Positions 17,997-36,949 of a DNA stretch of 64,000 bases are shown here, in pieces. The first letter of the stretch is position 1; each line of letters begins with the position of its first letter. Source of the stretch: Rhizophagus irregularis. Taxonomy: Eukaryota > Glomeromycota > Glomeromycetes > Glomerales > Glomeraceae. Where the stretch lies: the NCBI RefSeq assembly GCF_026210795.1, contig NC_089429.1, positions 7,411,001-7,475,000 of the forward strand, written 5' to 3'. The notes under the pieces are model-generated. The model worked only from the letters and a program-made list of their open reading frames with translations, made no database searches and was not told the origin of the DNA. Both the position numbers and the translations under genes were made by a program.

Positions 17997-18308
17997 TTAT
18001 CTATATTTTGTTCTAAAGTACTTGTATATTTTCATCATTACTTTCACCTTTGTTTTCTTTTCAACTAAAGATATTTCATTATCTTTTAATGGAGTAGTTA
18101 ATTTTGCTATTAAGACACTAATATTTTTTTGAACTCCAAATGATAAATAATTAAAACAATTATTATATTTACCATTGCATAAAGCTAAACATTCTTTATG
18201 AAAACTATACCTACAAATCAAAACAATACCATTAAATGAATCTATATTATTAAGTAATAAACAATTTTTTGCATCACAAAATTTATTATTAGCAGGTTTA
18301 TGTACCAC
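17997..18308 (-). pseudogene. 3' fragment of RING-type transposase (third copy)
   Basis: The minus-strand frame contains NKFCDAKNCLLLNN, then ICRYSFHKECLALC and NNCFNYLS, then PLKDNEIS. The element B protein has matching DKICDAENCLSSNS, ICGHSYHKECL, YCFNYLSESI and PLKDNEISEF. So this is the RING-like finger and the start of the tail of a third member of the A/B transposase family. The usual ICGH is ICRY here and one zinc-binding Cys (GKCK/EKCK region) has become GKYNN, so the finger is probably non-functional. The upstream part of the gene is missing; the sequence joins amidohydrolase remnants at about 18309. No terminal repeats were found, so this is a truncated relic. Confidence 0.75.
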
Positions 18309-23912: not shown

Positions 23913-24191
23913 TTTTACGTGTAAACTAGAAATAAAATGACGCGAAAATACATATGAAAGAAAGAATTTGAAGAATTTGAAAAAGTAACTGAAACCGTGA
24001 CCGTGATACTTTCACTCGGAAAATCTTACCACCCTACCCTGTGATGTTTTTGGGGGACGTCTAAAGCATTTACCCCAGTATCACCGACACTTTTATAATT
24101 AAAATTCCACCCCCACGTGTCCGGTGACATTTAAAGGGAAGTGAAAAAATAATTTTGTGAGGCAAAAAAAAACTGTCCCTCAGATAAATAT

Positions 24192-27100
24192 AACAGGGCG
24201 GACATGCTAAATATCACATTGCCGATCATTTGCCGATCATATATATATTGATTATCCCATTTTTTTGAGGCTTCGGGCAAAGCCATATTTGCTCAAAAAA
24301 ATTACACTAATTATTTTATTTGGTAGTTTAGGTTATCAAAAATATACTATAAAAATTTTGTGGCAAAAAAAAATGTAATGCCAAAGTTAGCTTTGAGCCA
24401 AAATTTTCAATAATTATAGTATTTACCAATCATATGCCGATCATCTGCTAATTTGACTTTGAAGCTTCGGGCGAAGCCACAGATGTTCGGGCGAAACTTG
24501 AAACTTTTATAGTATATTATTTAGGTATTCAAGAATCTGTAGCTAAAATAAACCTGGATAATTTTTGATAACCCAGAAGTTATTGTTAAATAAATACTTG
24601 CAATTATTTAAGGTTAATAAGACTAATTTTTGGTATAGTTTTTATGAACTGTTTTAAGGGTTAATTCATTTATAATAAATAGAGAATAAAGTAAAATAAT
24701 TGAATTTTATATATATTGTTCATTTTTTTATAAATAGTTTTTAAAATTTACAGAAAATACTTATAAAAATTGTATCAATTTTAATATAAAATATTATTAT
24801 CTAATTTAAATATAATATAAAACAGCATTATTTTTTTTTAACTTAATAAAAAACAACACTTTTTTTGAATTTAATATAAAAGTTTTGAATAAATTATTCA
24901 ATAAAATGTCAACAGATTCTACTTGCAGTTTTAATTCAACTGATTGCAAAGGAGCAATTAAGCAAATTACTAATAATACAAAAATTCCAATAACAAATAA
25001 AGAAATTATTTTAGTTGGCATGAAACTATGTCAAACTCACTATAATAAATTTATTATTAATGAAGCTCATAACCTTAAACATAATGAAACTTGCTCTCAT
25101 CCAAAGCATGATGAATATAAAAGTCAATCAAAAAATACAAATAAAAGATCAAAAAACCTTAATCTTGAAAAGGTTCCAAAGAGATTGATGTTAATTTTAA
25201 ATTTAGATGAGACTGCTAAAATTTGTAGCTTATGCAGAAAAAGGACAGATAAAGATCCTGATTATAATATATTAGAAGAATATAATGCACCAATTTCTAA
25301 AAAAGAAAATGATAATAATATATTAAATATAGGAAATCATGCTTATTCATTTAGAAAAGATGTTTTATACAGTGGAGATGAATTAAAGCAGTTTGAATCA
25401 GATTATCAAGAGATTATAACACAATTAACAATTTCAAATGAAATTAGTTTAAGTGATAAAATTAAAAAAATGTCTAACATTCTTTATAAAAATCAAAGAA
25501 AGTATTAAAACAAAAAACAATTTATGATCCTGATGAATTTAAAATTATGTTAGAAGAAGCAGATACAGATTTAATTGGATTTTTTGATGAATTATATAAG
25601 GGAACTAATCCTAATACAAAATCTGATAAAACAAATAATAATAATAAGAAAAAACTAGTTTCTTTATGTTATTTTTTAGCTAGTATTAATAACAAATATA
25701 TAAATGGAATTAAAGCAGATATTGGATCATATTTAGAAACTTCTGGAGCATCAGCTTCTTCTATTGATACACTTGCAAATATAGGATTATCAGTATCTCG
25801 AAGAACAGTAAATCGACAAAAAACTTATATTTCAGAAGATCATCAGTATACTGTAAATGACTATTGTTTACAAAACATTGAAAATATGTTTATACTTAAT
25901 ATTGATGATTATCATAATATTCATAGAAGAAATCAACCAACTCTATTAAAAACACATGACATTAATCACTTTGTAACAATTTTATTAAATTCAAATTCTA
26001 ATATTCCTAAAATACCTTATTACTCATTAAACAGAATTCCAATTCATAATCCTAAAGGTGTTGATTTTAAATTAATTATAGATTATATTGATGTTAGCTT
26101 CATGAGTAAATTAGGAAAAAGTTATTATCAACAAAATGAAATGTGGAAGCAATATTTATCTGATGATTCTTATGAAAATAAATTGGAATTTCTTACTGTT
26201 CATAATTATGATGGACGTGTTCAAAATCAACAAGAACTAAGATCAATGAAAAATAGTAAGTTGGTGGATTTTATTTTACATCCTTTGCACAATACAAAGG
26301 ATTATATTGAATCTTCAAATATTTTATTTAAAGTATTTGAAAAAATAGAACAAGAGGATTATTTAAATAATTTTGTAATACCTACAATTTGTGATTGGCC
26401 TGGTCAAGTAAATTTAAGAAGAGCTATTACATTAAGACTTAATAAAAAAGAAAATTCTGGAATTTCACCTCAAATATTAAGTATAATTCCTATGATTGGT
26501 CCACTACATATTTCTTTAAATAGCAGAGAAACATTATTTCAACAATATCATTTCTTTTTTGAAATGATATATCATGATCTCTTTGGAGCTAACAAGATTT
26601 TAGCACAAAAACCAAAGCCAAGACTTATTAATCTTATATTAAATTTAACATTTTATGGATGGAAAAATATTCGCAATTTAATTATTAATCGTTTTGGAAA
26701 TATAAAAGATGTTGAATATTTAATGATGATAGATTTATTAGACAATTCTTTACCACTTACTTTAGATATATATACTAAACTTTTTAGATGTGGATTTTTT
26801 GAAGGATATTTAGAAAGTATTATAAAAATTTGGATTTTATTTCAAAGATTGCATAGACATAATTATAATAAAGCACCACTTATATTTTTAAGTGATGTGT
26901 TTTATTGGACATTAAATGATCATCCAATACTAGATGTTTTAAAAAATAATTTACCAATTTTTAATGATTATTTTGTTGAAAATTTTCATAGTTCTCTTAG
27001 ATATCAAACAGCTGAATCAAATATTGATAAACAAATTATACAAAAAGCAAAAACTATTGATATTGAAAGAAATGATGATGGATTTAAAAATACTTTTATT

Positions 27101-27969
27101 AACACAAGAAATACAAATATTTCAAAGGTTAAATTAATATCTTTAGAAAAGAAAGTTTCATTATTCTTATTATCTCTTTTTGATATAATTTATCATAATA
27201 TTGGAAAATCAAGTAATAATAACAATAATAATATGTTTGAACTTCCAAGTTTTAATAATAGAAATGTAAATGTTAAGCTTTTTCCTTTAGCTTGGAGTAC
27301 TTCAAATATACCTGATAATGATAAAATTTGTGATGCAGAAAATTGTCTATCATCAAATTCATAATAAATTATTTTAATATGTGGCCATAGCTATCATAAA
27401 GAATGCTTAAGTCTACTTGATGAAAAGTGTAAATATTGCTTTAATTATTTATCAGAAAGCATTAAAACAAATATTACTAGTTTGAATAAAAGATTATTTA
27501 AACCATTAAAAGATAATGAAATATCTGAATTTACAGAAGATAAAGGTTTAGATGAAGATTATGATGATGAAAATATTGATAGTCTTTTAGAACAAGAAGA
27601 ATATAATATAAATAATCAATATGAAATTCAATATAATATATGGTTAAACTATAATAATATGTAAATGATAGATAAAAATCCTTTATTTTATTTTAATTTT
27701 AATAAAAATACTTATTTTCATTAAATTATAAAAAGTTTCCATTAGTAAAATTGCTTAATAATATTCTGATTTAGGTAAAAATTAATATACTATAATTCTG
27801 AAGTAAAATTAAGCTATTCTTAAAATTTTAGTATACATTAATATGTAAATTTTGCAAAAAATAACTGATAACAGTATTTTTCTTATGTGATATGATTGAA
27901 TAAATGATCGACAAATGATCGGCAAAATGATCGGCAAAATCGTGATAAAATAGAGATGTCCGCCCTGTT
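24192..27969. mobile_element. TIR transposon B nested in A
   Basis: The ends are AACAGGGCGGACATG and the complement of AACAGGGCGGACATC. Subterminal copies of tgccgatcat follow on the left and tgatcggcaaaa on the right. The flanks gataaatat (24183-24191 and 27970-27978) are an exact 9-bp target duplication. The 3778-bp element holds a single plus-strand gene related to that of A but better preserved and more AT-rich. The terminal sequence differs from A's, so B is a sister family, inserted 115 bp inside A's left end. Confidence 0.92.
24885..27661 (+). pseudogene. RING-type transposase of element B (few lesions)
   Basis: The frame runs from 24885 to 25508 and, after a single-nucleotide frameshift at about 25498, from about 25500 to 27364; two adjacent TAA codons (27362-27367) are followed by more coding sequence to 27661. 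The N-terminal Cys/His segment (CSFNSTDCKG and KLCQTHYNKFI) looks zinc-binding. In the central part (residues counted from 25547) NIDDYHNIH (about 118-126), ICDWPGQ (about 281-287), IGPLHISLNSRE and VENFHSSLR (about 477-485) are conserved in element A. A D-D-E triad from the first, second and last of these is my inference. After the stops comes a RING-like finger (CDAENC, CGHSYHKEC, CKYC) and an acidic tail (EDKGLDEDYDDENID). The location inside a complete TIR element argues for transposase. I cannot name the superfamily. Confidence 0.8.
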
Positions 27970-27978
27970 GATAAATAT

Positions 27979-28222
27979 AGCATAGGTAAAGATCCGTGTT
28001 ATTGGCTGATTTATCAGTCATGTGATTCAATTTATGTGATCGACAAATATATGTAACGCGTTACTTTAAAAAAAGGAGTAAAAGACTCATATAAAAGTGG
28101 TGATACACTACATAACAATATACATCCAAAATTTACATGAGAGTTTAACAGCTCTTTCTCAACCAAGATCCGGTTTTAGCTTAAACAGATCCGACTTTAG
28201 GTTAGACTTCTCTTAATAGCAA
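27979..28222 (+). promoter_or_regulatory. Probable promoter of element A gene
   Basis: A TATAAAA box at 28090-28096 lies about 130 bp before the ATG at 28223, within A's left arm just inside the B insertion. B's insertion separates this region from A's left terminus by 3.8 kb but leaves the box intact. Confidence 0.4.
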
Positions 28223-31200
28223 ATGACAAGAGGTTTTTGCAAGCGAAATAACGGACCCTGTGCTGTTTGTGGACTGCAAAATTCCAATGAAAAGTTTCGA
28301 AAATTAACTTTAGAAGCACTTACAAAAGTGCAAAACAGTCCTACAGTGTCTTTATTGACAGTTCAATTGCAAGTGGATGATCAACTTTGTATAAAACACT
28401 ACAATGAACTTATTTCCTATAAACGAAACATATCAAAATACAGTAAAAAAAGTGCTGATAAAGATTTATCATACAAAGGAGCAAAAAGAATTTGTTTAAG
28501 AGAAGAAGTGTATCATGATTTGCTAGATAATACACACAATCTAGAAGTTTTAGAGCAACGTGTTAAAGGGACAATTAGAATTGGGAGAATATATAACTAA
28601 ATTAAAGGAGTCTTCAACTAATGGTAATGTTAAATACGAGAATTGGTATATAACATTATTATTAATAACATTAAATATAAATAGAGCCCGTAAGATTTTC
28701 ACAGTTCTTTGGTGATCAAGTAGCTCGTATGACCAATATACTTTATCAACACCAAAAGGGAGGCAATTTACCTATTTTTGATCCAATAAAGTTTGTGGCG
28801 TTAATTGAAAGTCGGGATATCAATTTGCGTGGATTTTTTGATATTTTGTTTCAATCTATGAATCCAACACAAAAAAACCATGCAACAAAACAAATGCTTA
28901 AACAAAAAGTGATGATGTTATGCTATCAAATGGCAGCGTTACGTAATAAGCAAGTTAGTGGGACGAAAACGGTGATAGGACTTCTTATGGTAGGATCTGG
29001 AACCTCAAAAAATGGCATCAACACTTTAGCCAATATGGGAATGAGTTCAACGTATCAAACTGTTTATAATATGTTAAAAAAAAATGCAGATGATCATAAA
29101 TCTAGTGTTCGCACATATATTAACAGTCATGTAAGTTTATTCTCGAATTAAAATTATTTTTTTTAAAAAAAAAATTGCGATTTTAACATAATTTTATTAT
29201 ATATATAGTCTAACAGTCTTCTTATCGGTTGCATTGATGATTACCATAACCTTCATGGTACACGAATCCCATCTGTAACGTCAATTTCCCAAATTTCACA
29301 TATGGCGACCATATTATTCAATAATGTTAAAATAACTCCTATTCCCTATATTTCTTCAAGTAATACTTCTATACATAATCCTAATGGGGTTGATGCTTCT
29401 ATTTTGAAGATAACACTTTGGGAAAATTATATGATTTCATTTGCCATGAGCTACAATTCATTGAAAACCCATTGGGCTCAATTTCAAGACATTACTACTG
29501 CGAATGAGTCAAGTCTTTTGGAATCATTAATAGTACATTCATATGATGCTGATCTCTTCGAAAGATATGGACGCAAGTTTACTGAAATAAAACCTGTTGA
29601 TCTTATCGAATTAAATCTTAAAAACACAAAAGACTACCTTCAAGCTATAAAGAGCTTTATTGAGTTAGTCTAAATGCATTTGGTTAAATTAAAAATAAAA
29701 TTTAACTAACATTAATGTATTTAAAATGCATAATAGATTACCTGAAATACAAACGTATTTGAATAATTATGTTATTCCTATTCCTGCAGATTTTCCCGGT
29801 CAGCTCTATATTAGAAAAGCCATTGTAAAAAAATTAGAATCGGATAACTCCAGCATCCCAAGAGAGATTACTCATCTGCTCCCATTTTTGGGACCTTTGC
29901 TTCTATCACTTAACACTAGAGAATCTGTTTTCTTAGTGTTTTAGGGGTTCTTTGATTTAATGTATAGAAGGGTGTTTGGAATGAAAAAAAAGTTGGCTGC
30001 GAAACCCAAGCCATGGAGAATAAATTTACTATTATATTTGGCGCATGCAGGCTGGCAACTAATTAGAAAATATGTAAAAGAACGTTTTAAATTATCAAAG
30101 GCCGTAGGATATCTAACATTCCTTGATCTTCTTGATAATTTAATACCTTCTTCTTTAGATATTTACGCCACTTTGTTTCGAGGAAACCATTTTGAAGAGT
30201 ACATTTCTACAGCATTTCATTTGTGGACTGTAATGAGAGATTTAATCGGCATAATTATGATAAAATCTTACTGGCATTTCTATCAGACATTCATTATTGG
30301 AAACAAACATAGCATCCTATTATTGATACGTTGAAAAATAGTTTGAATAAATTTGATGAATATGCTGTAGAAAATTTCCATAGCTTACTACGACGACATA
30401 CAAATGCAAAAGTATCAACAGCCGATTCACTGAGGCGTGATGCTTTATTTTTGGATCATTTCCGGCATGATAATCTATTTAACACTTCTTTTGCACCAAA
30501 GCGTGACTATCCATATAAAAAAAAAGATCTGGACAATTTAGTAAAAAAAACTGCCCTTTTTCTTTTAGATTTTTTTGATGGAATATGGCAGAATAATGGT
30601 CAAATAGAAAAAAAATGGAGGGTAAAGTTAATAAAAAAACTTATTATTATTTTTCGTACATAATAGAATCTCGATTTTCTGCTGGTGTATTACCTATTGG
30701 ATATCATTCAACAGTACCACCAAGTATCAATAAGTTTTGTGATCATGTTAACTGTGCCAATTTTACAGATGAACATGGAGAAGTATTAATATGCGGCCAT
30801 GCATATCATGAAGAATGCTTTCAAAAACTAGGTCTTCGATGTCACCATTGTTATTCTTAGGGGAGTTACACATATCACGTAATATTCATTTTCTTATAAA
30901 CCTTACCCCCCCCCCCCCCTGTTAGATTTCATAACCAATCAAATTATAATATTTATAAATCATATGATTTAAATAAGTGTAACGTAAAATTTTAACTACC
31001 CCCCTCCCCCCCTATAATAATTACATAATATGTGTAAGCTCCCTTATCTAGCTACTTCTATTGATGAATTAACACAGTCATATAACAATCGGTTGCATAT
31101 GGATGAAGATATAAATAATGAATTTGATATAAAGAACGAGAAACAGTCCGAAGACTGTGAATTTGATAATGCAGAAACAATAAATATTCATAAAACAATT

Positions 31201-31405
31201 GATATTGAATTGAGTGAAAAAATATTAGGTATCTTCTGTAAAGTTTTAAAATTTGAAATTTTATTAAAATTTACACTAATAATAAAATAGCCTTTGCAGA
31301 AAATAGGATTCAAATACCTCCTATGCAACAGCCATTATATGATATTTCAAATTGTTATCAACAATCTGGATCACTTCATAATGTAGAGGAAAATTTACTA
31401 GCATG
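28223..31405 (+). pseudogene. RING-type transposase of element A (decayed)
   Basis: This is a homologue of the element B gene. The N terminus has CAVCGLQNSNEK and LCIKHYNELI (zinc-binding-like). Next come MTNILYQHQK and GFFDILFQSMNP, an intron 29131-29208 (GTAAGT...ATAG), then GCIDDYHNLHG, a probable second intron at about 29650-29725, and IPADFPGQLYIRKAI. After that come FLGPLLLSLNTRES, AVENFHSLLRRHTN, and a RING-like finger NKFCDHVNCANF, LICGHAYHEEC, CHHC ending at 30860. Acidic tail exons (MDEDINNEFDI) follow, and a last exon runs to about 31405. An intron after the finger contains a 15-nt poly-C. Lesions: an in-frame TAG at about 29942, frame changes near 30240 and 30630, and a stop near 30310. 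Codon use is less AT-biased than B's, so A is older or of different origin. Confidence 0.8.
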
Positions 31406-31889
31406 ATTTGTATCAACTGAAATTGATAATACTCAAAGTACATTAGAATTTTTCTTTTAATAGGCGTAATGGTAAAAATTGCAAGTATTTTTTTGACATT
31501 TTGTAGTTATTGTATAGGTTATTATATAGGTTATTGTATAGTTATTCCTGTATTATATGGATTATTATATAGGTTATTACATAATTAAAGATTCTTAAAA
31601 AGTATTTTCACAGGTTGAACACGAAAATAAAAGTTTGCTTTATCAATTATGCGTAATTTCAGCAATATTATAAATAAGGGTTATTAAATTTTGTGGTAAC
31701 GTGAAAGCAAAATTATTGGCTAACAGGGTGTTGATCATCACGTGAAAATTAACCAATAGATGGATTTTTACCTATGCTGATAAATATAAACAGTGAAAAC
31801 GCGGTGGGGTGTGATGCCGGCGATGAATATTACAAAATCACGTGGGGGTGGAAAAAGTGTCGGTGATACTGGGGAAGATCGTCTAAAGC

Positions 31890-32869
31890 AACTACCCCAG
31901 TATCGCCATAAAATTTTTCCACCCCCACGTGATTTTGTGGCGTCTGAATTTTAATTGGCGCAATGTTTATTTCGCATGTATTATTACGTTTATCATAGGA
32001 AAAAAAAATCGAAAAAAAAGTTGAAAAATTCAAAAAAAAAGAAAAACTGATATTTTTCCTTTAACATATTAATCATTTTATTACTTTTACAATAAATACA
32101 TTTGAAAATAATTCTTCTCACTTTATTAAATTTAATTTTAATAAACAAATAAATATTTATTGGTATTTAGAGTCAAGTACATTATTCCATAAATATTAAA
32201 GCTAATTTAATAAAAATCAATATTTAAGTAATCCTACATCTGCTAATACTTTACTTAATCTCTAAAGGCTTGTTTCATATAACAGAAGTACCAAAATTAC
32301 GCTGTAAAGTGAAAAAAATCAACCGCGTGTGGCACAGTAGTTTCCATACAAAAAATATTCATATTGTTGCAAATATTATATTTGAGTGGTTCCATACCTG
32401 CTAAACAACTTAGTCTAAGCTACCTAAACCTATAACATTTAACTAAAGTCCTGAAATTACACTACAAAATAAAAAACAAATACAACTCAGTAATTTCTTT
32501 TAAAAAACACCAATATTTTCACAAAAACAATATACATACTTGTTAAATAACTTTCTTTAAGCGCTAAAACCTTGTTTTATTTAGCTAAAATATTCACAAA
32601 ATCTACAAAAAAACGCGTCTATTGTAAATAAAATTAACTATAGCTTTATAACAATATTCTACACTCTAGCTTTTAAATTTTTTATTGTTTAATAGATTTT
32701 TTAAAGAATATTTTAACGTGAAAAAAGTGGGGAGAAAAAAAAGAAAAAAGGGGGAGAGAAATAGTTTTGTTGTAACGAATAAACAATAAACAAATATAAA
32801 CTGATTGTGCCACCGCGCCACCCAAGTCACGTGGGGGTGAAAAAATTTTATGGCGATACTGGGGAAGAT
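31890..32869. mobile_element. Non-autonomous TIR element C abutting A
   Basis: The ends are AACTACCCCAGTATCGCC and the complement of ATCTTCCCCAGTATCGCC. Both continue with ataaaattttt and the CACCCCCACGTG block over more than 50 bp. The flanking 9-mer gtctaaagc (31881-31889 and 32870-32878) is the target duplication, and the left copy is also the right duplication of element A. At 980 bp there is no transposase; the interior is AT-rich without coding features. By its ends it belongs to A's family. Confidence 0.92.
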
Positions 32870-32878
32870 GTCTAAAGC

Positions 32879-34377
32879 GGAGTAGTCACGTGACTTTAAG
32901 GAAAACCCCATTTTTTCAAAATATAACTTTTTAAAATATGTATAGCCTTTAATTAAGCCTATAATAGGTGCATTTTGGCCTGCTTCGCAAGTTTAAATTT
33001 AAATTGAACTTTCCAAATTTTTCCAAGAGTTATATTATGTTTGTTTGTTTATTGTAAACCCCCTCCCTCAAACTCTTTATAAATTCTGGATATTAAACAA
33101 TCAATCAAATTGAAATAACTTTATATATACAATTAGATAAATTTTTTTATAAAAAAGTCAAATAACTCAAAAACGGTATTTAAAGCCTTATTTTGTACTC
33201 TAAGTAGAGGGAGGTATTTAAATATATTTATTATTATATGTATAATAGAATATACTAATCCTATGTGTAAATTGACTTCAGTATTAGTTTTTATATTAAA
33301 AATAAAAATAAAAATAAATATGTTTAATAGAATCCAGATTTTTGGAAAAATAGAGGAGAGAAGTAGAGAACAGCCTAATGTTAAAAATCATATGATTACT
33401 TCACTTTAAATGTCTCCTATTTTTGTTATATTATTACATAATGACTTGTTTGTGTTTTTATTATTATATTTTTGAGAAGTGCCTTATATCATAGTCTAGA
33501 TACTTATTCTAAACTATCAAATTGATTAGATGGAAATTGTTTTAAATAATATTTGTATTAAAAAAAATTTTGCAATGTTATTTTTTTAAAAAAAATAAAG
33601 AAAATAAAATTTAACTTCTTAAAGTAATTTTTTTTGAACTTAATTTACCAATCCAGATGTTTATTCTATGCATTTATTATAAAAAAAATAAAGTTTTAAT
33701 ATATAAAATAATTTGTTTTATATAAAATACATTTAAGCTGATTGTTAAAAATCTTTAATAATTTTTTTTTTAAACATAATATTTTTAAAAGAAATAATTT
33801 ATTTATCGCACGTGCGATGCAAATTTTTATGTTTATCATTGCCATTTTAAGGGGGGTGGCGATGTATAAGCAGGTTGATCAACATAAATAATTTACAAAA
33901 AAGGAAAGTGGCGATGCATCGCACGTGCGATGAATAAATTTACTCTTTTTAAAAAATAAAAAATAAAAATAAAGAAAAAAAAGTAAAAAAAAGTACTAAG
34001 ATTTGAGAAAAGTATTGCAATATTATATTATTATTCTGTCAATGATTTAAAGTGACTGAAAAACTTTAATGCTTTAACAGGTTAACTAGAGTTTAACTTA
34101 ATAGGAGAGTCTTAAGTTGATCACAAATAATCATGTAAATAATATTGGATGTTCAATTAAAGAAAATAGGTTTTTATTAAATAATATAAAACTTTGAATA
34201 CAATAAAAAATATAAATAATCTTTTGTTTATAAAATTAACTATCTTGAATTATATTACTGAAAATAATACTCTTTTCGTATAATTTGAAAATTACAATAC
34301 AATTCTTAACTACCAAACTATCTGTCTTTTAACTAAGTAAAATCCTTATATTAATTATAATAAAATTTAAAAATGAA
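32879..34377. other. Gene-free AT-rich stretch
   Basis: No supported gene. It contains a small palindromic element at about 33794-33942 (listed separately). The 5' sequence immediately after element C (ggagtagtcacgtgac) is the other side of the interrupted SRPBCC upstream region. Confidence 0.5.
33794..33942. mobile_element. Small foldback element with self-palindromic ends
   Basis: Both ends carry the perfect 14-bp palindrome ATCGCACGTGCGAT (33805-33818 and 33918-33931) followed inwards by GCA. Including the adjoining aatttatt-type sequence, the inverted arms are about 27 bp. The interior has an aaggggggtggcgatg segment. No convincing target duplication. Confidence 0.6.
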
Positions 34378-35758: not shown

Positions 35759-36729
35759 TCATTCTAACTTATTTAATTCCTCCAAAACATCCTCTGGTAT
35801 TCTCCTGTGAGATTTATATTTTTTTACCGCATATTCCACTAATTTTCCGTCAATACCTTTCCTATAAAGGTCCATATAGCGCCAACATTTTCTTGAAAAC
35901 TTTCTAATAGTAATTAAAGTTACTGAATCAAGACTTTCAGGAACCATTTTTTGCAATCCCTCCCATGAATAATCACAGTTTTCACGAGAATACCTTTTGG
36001 CAGCACCCCAATATCTTTCAATGAAATTTAATTTGCAATAAAATTTAGGGAAAAAAATGCATTTATGTCTTGCATTTTCAATTAATTCTTCAATAGCACC
36101 TTTTTGAGCAAGAAAATCGGGTTCTAAGGATATTACTCGACGTGCACAGCAGGAAGTTCTTGAGCTATCCTGACACTTTTCTTTGCATTTGCTACATTCT
36201 AATACCAATCCTCTGGGTGGCCATTTTCCACATTCCATTAACACTTGTTTAATTCCTTTGGGCTTACCTCGAAGTTTCTCATCATAATGTGTTGTTGGAA
36301 ACACCATTGACTGTAGCTGATTATTTGGCCCAAAGTAAGTATTCCGCATGACTGGTTGTTTACCACCTGGGTTTAAGTTCATTCGACTTGCAACTAAAGC
36401 ATCTTTGCTAAATGCAGCATGATTAGAGCTATTATCAAAAGCAAATACTGCTACACAATCTGGATATAAAGCCTCAAAAATAGGAATTGCTTTATATTCA
36501 ATTTGTTCCAGAAGATGTTCTGCTGTCCAATATCCCTCTTGATTTGTGCCAGGTTTTAAGTAACATCGTGCTGCTTTGGGTACATGAGGATGTTTTTCTA
36601 TATCAGCTTGCTGCAAACGCAGATGTCCATCAACTTCGGTTAGAAATTCACTAACCATAATTGATCTTCCATTTCCTTTTTTTCGTAATGGCATCTCCCC
36701 ATTCCTAGTCCACAATCTGCATTTTCTAT
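35759..36729 (-). pseudogene. D transposase, C-terminal half
   Basis: Directly inside the E insertion the frame continues from RKCRLWTRNGEMPLRKKGNG and SIMVSEFLTEVDG to the stop at 35759. Motifs: PGTNQEGYWT; second acidic residue in VFAFDNSSNHAAF; NTYFGPNNQLQSMVFP; a Cys-rich insert (LECSKCKEKCQDSSRTSCCA); and FFPKFYCKLNFIERYWGAAK with the third acidic residue in the IS630/Tc1-style position, followed by RYSRENCDYSWEGL. This is a large fungal DDE transposase type that resembles IS630/Tc1. No stop interrupts this half. The first acidic residue lies in the other half (45033-46411), severed by the CACTA element. Confidence 0.85.
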
Positions 36730-36949
36730 CACAGGTCGAACAGATGTCATTGTCGCAAAATTTGCCTGGAATTTTTCTGGCAAATTGAGAATTATCCCGG
36801 TGAATTGGGGTAAATTGTGTTACAATTTTGGGATAATGGAGGTCTTACAATTTGGCAAATTTTGTCAAAATGGCAGAATTCTTACAGAATTCCTAATTCA
36901 AATGTTGAGAAATTTTTCAGTAAATTATCATTAAATTGTGGGAAATTTT

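Follow-up and report, generated by a model that had tools for sequence, protein, structure and literature searches.

Two adjacent elements, A and B, in a 64,000-nt stretch of the Rhizophagus irregularis genome (contig NC_089429.1; hereafter the window, whose positions are used as coordinates) probably belong to an autonomous cut-and-paste DNA transposon family that was not placed in any named superfamily by the tests applied and whose putative DDE-type transposase carries a C-terminal RING-type finger. Terminal inverted repeats (TIRs), 9-bp target duplications, empty sites, near-identical dispersed copies, a family of derivatives and one conserved multi-domain protein were all observed. An original prediction had described A and B as such a family; its observation was confirmed and its interpretation was partly supported.

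Elements A and B and their genomic copies

A and B were arranged in tandem as GATAAATAT-A-GATAAATAT-B-GATAAATAT, the middle copy being common to both. Each is bounded by TIRs and by the same exact 9-bp target duplication, in agreement with what had been proposed for the two elements. They lie within a third TIR element, which has its own ends at 24068 and 31879 and a 10-bp duplication, CGTCTAAAGC, and measures 216 bp without A and B. The span and the 10-bp duplication given in the original prediction are real, but belong to this enclosing element. The last 100 bases of the enclosing element had at least 43 matches in the genome, including the window's own (40 of 102 candidates scored). In 7/7 other copies of it that were examined, GATAAATAT was present only once, representing the pre-insertion (empty) site; three of these seven (L034, L035 and L037; L-numbers denote fetched genome loci) had an altered or missing left end and an intact insertion junction. 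Identical 9-mers at two random window places were drawn 72 times in 1,938,029 draws.

The genome searched was AT-rich and comprised 146.7 Mb in 32 contigs. A protein search with the core of A, in which 71 of 206 candidates were scored, gave at least 87 matching stretches, and searches with part of B and part of L011 gave 63 and 107 stretches, respectively. The lengths of target duplications were surveyed in 37 coding copies, 35 of them in fetched loci together with A and B. TIRs with an exact 9-bp duplication were found in 22 of the 37 (L001, L002, L003, L005, L006, L009, L016, L017, L019, L020, L022, L023, L024, L029, A, B and L047-L052). At L010, two further coding copies, nearly identical to each other, were arranged as a direct tandem with a spacing of about 3.24 kb, and one 9-bp duplication, AGTCAGTCT, enclosed the pair. 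The short TIRs were of the types AGCATA..., AGCATG... or AACAGGG..., and the duplicated sequences varied from place to place except for the one common to A and B. Five of the six possible pairs among copies L002, L003, L004 and L005 were compared and showed 99.87-99.93% identity over 4.55 kb; L002, L003 and L005 were flanked by differing duplications. Copies with about 99.9% identity and different flanks indicate recent movement. The proposed TIR family was supported, and it is real and recently mobile.

The same ends were also found without the gene. The 14-mer end AGCATAGCGGACAT occurred 86 times in forward and 87 times in reverse orientation genome-wide, and the reversed control gave 0. Among the places listed, many pairs of this end lay about 620 bp apart and constitute non-autonomous derivatives. 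An exact 9-bp duplication was present in 11 of 12 sampled derivatives, L066 being the one without.

Some copies weigh against a uniformly TIR-bounded family. Two of the 37 (L004 and L021a) had both ends but no duplication, and 11 of the 37 (L007, L008, L011, L018, L021b, L025, L026, L027, L028, L053 and L054) had one end or none, when missing ends were sought with the sibling TIR at up to three mismatches (up to two for L053 and L054). Gene copies lacking TIRs had been named beforehand as evidence that would speak against such a family; these 11 had no detectable pair of ends, and we read them as products of truncation or decay.

Tandem same-site insertion was considered as a habit of the family and rejected. 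The arrangement end-N9-end (AGCATAG ends) was found at one genome place and at none in the control, so that tandem insertion appears rare and nothing was built on it. The sole such place, C32:269061-269083, with AGCATAG-type termini, is perhaps a tandem insertion sharing one 9-mer. Separately, a fourth TIR element at 31890-32869 of the window has a duplication, GTCTAAAGC, in common with the enclosing element, and with it forms the second case within 9 kb of tandem insertion at one site.

The encoded protein and its superfamily placement

One long gene had been proposed for each element. Such a gene is intact elsewhere in the genome, at 918-1054 aa, but neither window copy is whole: A is interrupted by a frame change (near 25490-25508) and by stops inside the finger, B by introns and decay. 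Intact single open frames from the first Met were found in L001 (918 aa), L002 (1054 aa) and L006 (932 aa), and A was 99.74% identical to the copy L001. The intact protein consists, in order, of an N-terminal Cys/His finger, a core with a conserved D...D...E pattern, a C3H2C3 RING-type finger and an acidic tail; in A the tail follows the finger to about 27664. The ratio of nonsynonymous to synonymous substitution (dN/dS) among the intact genes was 0.44 for L001-L006, 0.365 for L001-L002 and 0.36 for L006-L002. Three subfamilies were distinguished, A-like, L009/L020-like and B-like, the latter two being 33-40% identical to L001. In hhalign profile alignments, subfamily 2 matched subfamilies 1 and 3 with 100% probability each.

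Conservation was assessed on 20 of 29 merged rows (L003, L004, L005, L007, L008, L010b, L021b, L029 and A having been omitted beforehand), of which 15 representatives were left after copies more than 90% identical were dropped; residue numbers are those of the L001 protein. The motifs listed in the original prediction were present in both window genes, and the core motifs in nearly all 15 representatives. DDYH was found in 14/15 (not in L027). Where covered, D435, D496 (within D(W/F)PGQ) and E541 were invariant (14/14 each), and D612, D620, D663, NY and E691 (within VEN-HS--R) were invariant in 15/15 each. A G-P-x-H motif followed D496 by 35-38 residues in 15/15. From these positions, the likely catalytic triad would be D333 or D334, D496 and E691, with D435 as a rival for the first place, and the protein is predicted to adopt an RNase H fold.

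At the N-terminus, the B-like and L009/L020-like copies examined had C-x2/4-C followed by LC-x2-HY, and the A-like copies had C-x6-C...LC-x2-HY, a related arrangement. The A-like subfamily has an additional CxHPKH...CxxC cluster, which is doubled in L002. The THAP-type spacing, which we take to be C-x2-4-C-x35-50-C-x2-H, fits the B-like and L009/L020-like N-termini but not the A-like ones. No Pfam THAP match was obtained in 5/5 proteins, and no Pfam model matched the N-terminal finger or the CxHPKH...CxxC cluster in five N-termini scanned. In the proposed mechanism, the N-terminal finger (C-x2/4-C...LC-x2-HY in two subfamilies) would bind the TIR, the core residues (D333 or D334, D496 and E691, or D435 in the first place) would cut with a 9-bp stagger, and the C-terminal cross-brace finger, by analogy with piggyBac, may serve as a structural or interaction module for the DNA end, chromatin or a partner protein.

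Several results count against a DDE-type transposase. No Pfam transposase model matched the family proteins above cut-off, and no solved structure matched them by sequence, which leaves both the RNase H fold and the triad as predictions. Several conserved acidic positions ahead of E691 compete for the triad. Moreover, the model HEPN_RiboL-PSP gave an unexplained sub-threshold match over the E691 region in 4/13 members (best E = 9.5e-5). This uncertainty about the fold, and the presence of MULE, Plavaka and Kyakuja-Dileera-Zisupton (KDZ) families in the same genome, would allow a host or passenger gene on an element moved by another transposase. Such an origin is very improbable, given that full-length elements of all three divergent subfamilies, whose ends are related and whose target duplications measure 9 bp, are filled by this one gene, and that no second frame of at least 150 aa was found inside the L002 or L006 elements.

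With respect to placement, the statement that the protein could not be placed in a named superfamily was upheld, as no match above cut-off was obtained. The only transposase-type Pfam traces below cut-off were DUF6589 (E = 0.31) and Transposase_24 (E = 0.14, on a tail). Membership in a described superfamily with the same finger was likewise not found by Pfam, structure-sequence and hhalign searches. The superfamilies Dada, hAT, P, MuDR/MULE and Kolobok resemble the present family in TIRs, 4-10 bp duplications and an xxxH motif after the second D (PMC3706591). We consider it unlikely that the family is a very divergent member of one of these C/DxxH superfamilies, missed for lack of sensitivity alone. 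Its 9-bp duplications do fall within the 4-10 bp range of hAT, Kolobok, P and MuDR (PMC3706591), and G-P-x-H stands at the position of C/DxxH, but the motif has Gly, neither Cys nor Asp, and no sequence similarity to these superfamilies was detectable. The MULE domain PF10551 gave no Pfam match in the family proteins. The probability in hhalign against six aligned MULE open reading frames (ORFs) from the same genome was 0.2%, as against 100% between the family's own subfamilies, and of 407 MULE candidates, 150 were scored and listed, none of whose places belonged to the family by eye.

KDZ and Plavaka are also fungal TIR transposons present in this genome, with duplications of 8 bp reported for Zisupton and 2-3 bp for Plavaka (PMC12730594). 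However, of the 26 KDZ (PF18758) and 123 Plavaka (PF18759; 123 of 180 candidates scored) genome matches listed, none lay at family places by eye, and hhalign against three Plavaka ORFs (one locus) and four KDZ ORFs (one locus, each alone) gave at most 0.3%. Because these same-genome ORF sets are small, such comparisons are weak evidence of absence. In the CMC and Transib groups, C(2)C and H(3-4)H motifs lie between the second D and the last E (PMC12730594). As a conserved set they were absent from the present family: CxxC occurred in 0/5 representatives and H3-4H in 2/5 at different places, and no conserved Cys was found within 496-691 among the 15 representatives.

The only lead to a placement was a faint trace of DUF6589 (PF20231). 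The family could be a transposon form of this Pfam entry, which would then be an unrecognised transposase superfamily, although we regard this too as doubtful. We take DUF6589 to be a domain of unknown function with fungal members and a similar motif order. One of 13 members (L022) matched it over profile positions 293-328, and the ORF family at L014 matched the same region (295-360, E = 0.00036, below cut-off). The L022 match was not significant (10.1 bits against a cut-off of 27), hhalign of the family against one DUF6589-like ORF (L014) gave 1.1%, the highest of all same-genome ORF comparisons, and the term DUF6589 was not found in the open-licence literature searched. As a separate observation, L012-L015 carry this multicopy ORF family, up to 664 aa with the sub-threshold DUF6589 match, and it is possibly another unclassified transposase.

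Relatives were also sought outside this genome. In viral contigs 150 stretches, and in prokaryote genomes 124, fitted one peptide pattern and none was confirmed; phage records gave none. No description of the family was found among open-licence papers. We tentatively suggest that these elements might represent an undescribed eukaryotic DDE-type TIR superfamily with 9-bp duplications, AGCATA-type ends, an N-terminal C2CH-like finger and a C-terminal RING fixed outside the Chapaev/RAG1 lineage, which possibly ubiquitinates the transposase or a host factor for silencing or repair.

The C-terminal RING-type finger

The protein regularly includes the finger. When 35 coding sequences (33 loci, a relic at 18 kb and the A+B region) were searched by pattern, 28 of them, from all three subfamilies, had the eight ligands in the order C-C-C-H-H-C-C-C, with C-G-H. 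The spacing C-x2-C, which is canonical, was found in subfamily 2, and C-x4-C in the other two. The RING-H2 pattern, taken here as C-x2-C-x9-39-C-x1-3-H-x2-3-H-x2-C-x4-48-C-x2-C, was matched exactly in 7 of the 28 loci, all of subfamily 2 (L009, L010, L016, L017, L019, L020 and L021). Finger dN/dS was 0.18 and 0.23 in two pairs. The best Pfam RING matches were zf_RING_Vps8 in L001 (E = 0.0025), zf-RING_5 in L002 (0.0027), zf-RING_Vps41 in L006 (0.00012), zf_RING_Vps8 in L023 and L010 (0.0015 and 0.002) and zf_RING_Vps8_fungal in L011 (0.0063).

Other data speak against so general a finger. None of these matches reached the gathering score of its model, and no Pfam RING match was obtained with the C-terminal piece of L008, in which one finger His is lost. 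The full pattern was missing in 7/35 (L008, L018, L025-L028 and the 18-kb relic). The finger of element A is split by stops, which is why only B fits the pattern within the A+B region. In a third pair, dN/dS was 0.80 over a gappy alignment. The relic is the third copy of the tail that had been reported at 17997; it is present, but its CGH is altered to CRY.

The original prediction had compared the finger to those of ubiquitin ligases. Its RING type held, being kept in three subfamilies, but the ligase function did not find the same support. The central-helix Trp and the Pro after the seventh ligand are important for binding of the ubiquitin-conjugating enzyme (E2) in RINGs. The Trp was present in 0/15 representatives and the Pro in 2/15. 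Because most of the usual E2-binding residues are missing, we favour ligase activity less than other readings, and an active E3 ubiquitin ligase of the RING-H2 type, directed against host factors or serving turnover of the transposon's own transposase, is rather improbable. The eight ligands in C3H2C3 order across three subfamilies would suit it, as would the ligase activity of the RAG1 RING (PMC4411706), but two of the three subfamilies have C-x4-C, not C-x2-C, and the RINGs of Vps8 and Vps41 rank among the best Pfam matches. The finger more probably has the structural or interaction role proposed above.

A finger of this type on a transposase had been called unusual. RING fingers have been reported in Chapaev transposases and in RAG1, and in 2015 it was stated that, Chapaev aside, no known transposable element has one (PMC4411706); a 2013 paper, however, reports them in long terminal repeat retrotransposons (PMC3630058). 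What the present family has in common with Chapaev, Transib and RAG1 is that a transposase, or a protein derived from one, bears a RING finger (PMC4411706). In Chapaev, however, the RING follows an N-terminal Chapa domain, whereas in the present family it is C-terminal and accompanied by 9-bp duplications. piggyBac and PiggyMac share a C-terminal cross-brace zinc finger, which binds the transposon ends in piggyBac and showed no detected DNA binding in PiggyMac (PMC8086355). The piggyBac finger is CxxC-CxxC-CxxH-CxxC and PHD-like, whereas the present one is C3H2C3 and RING-like, and there was no sequence match. A RING on a transposase therefore has precedents, and a C-terminal RING in such a family appears to be new.

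Window features and significance

The features of the window are collected in Table 1. Two further observations were made downstream of the elements. A long inverted repeat at 33763-33973, with 59-nt arms of 80% identity around ATCGCACGTGCGAT, is a possible miniature inverted-repeat transposable element. On the minus strand, a 361-aa ORF at 35759-36844 matched DDE_3 weakly, below cut-off (E = 0.0015), and is perhaps a Tc1/mariner-like relic.

Table 1. Elements, target duplications and gene parts in the window
Feature	Position	Strand	Remark
Relic of third copy, finger and tail	17997..18308	-	CGH altered to CRY
10-bp target duplication CGTCTAAAGC, left of enclosing element	24058..24067		
Left TIR of enclosing element	24068..24094	+	
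9-bp target duplication GATAAATAT, left of A	24183..24191		single in 7/7 empty sites
Element A, TIR AACAGGGCGGACAT	24192..27969	+	3778 bp
A gene part 1, N-terminal Cys/His finger and CxHPKH...CxxC cluster	24906..25508	+	
A gene, putative transposase core	25490..27364	+	IDDYHNIH, DWPGQ, GPLHISLN, VENFHSSLR
A gene, RING-type finger	27329..27439	+	stop codons within it in copy A
9-bp target duplication GATAAATAT, common to A and B	27970..27978		
Element B, TIR AGCATAGGTAAA	27979..31778	+	3800 bp
B gene exon 1, C-x2-C...LC-x2-HY finger	28223..28600	+	
B gene, core	28681..30624	+	IDDYHNLH, DFPGQ, GPLLLSLN, VENFHSLLR; several frames (introns and decay)
B gene, RING-type finger	30738..30851	+	C-x4-C-x12-C-x-H-x2-H-x2-C-x7-C-x2-C
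9-bp target duplication GATAAATAT, right of B	31779..31787		
Right TIR of enclosing element	31853..31879	-	
Target duplication CGTCTAAAGC, right of enclosing element	31880-31889		

About two thirds of the transposable elements of Rhizophagus irregularis were unclassified before curation, and in the curated library a DNA/TIR element was retained only on a match to a transposon-domain model of a known superfamily (PMC11075540). Under such a criterion, a family like the present one could be missed there. If its status as a superfamily is true, it would add an extra transposase lineage and a further case of a RING on a transposase, and would bear on the origin of the RAG1 RING. The near-identical intact copies make transposition of the family testable.

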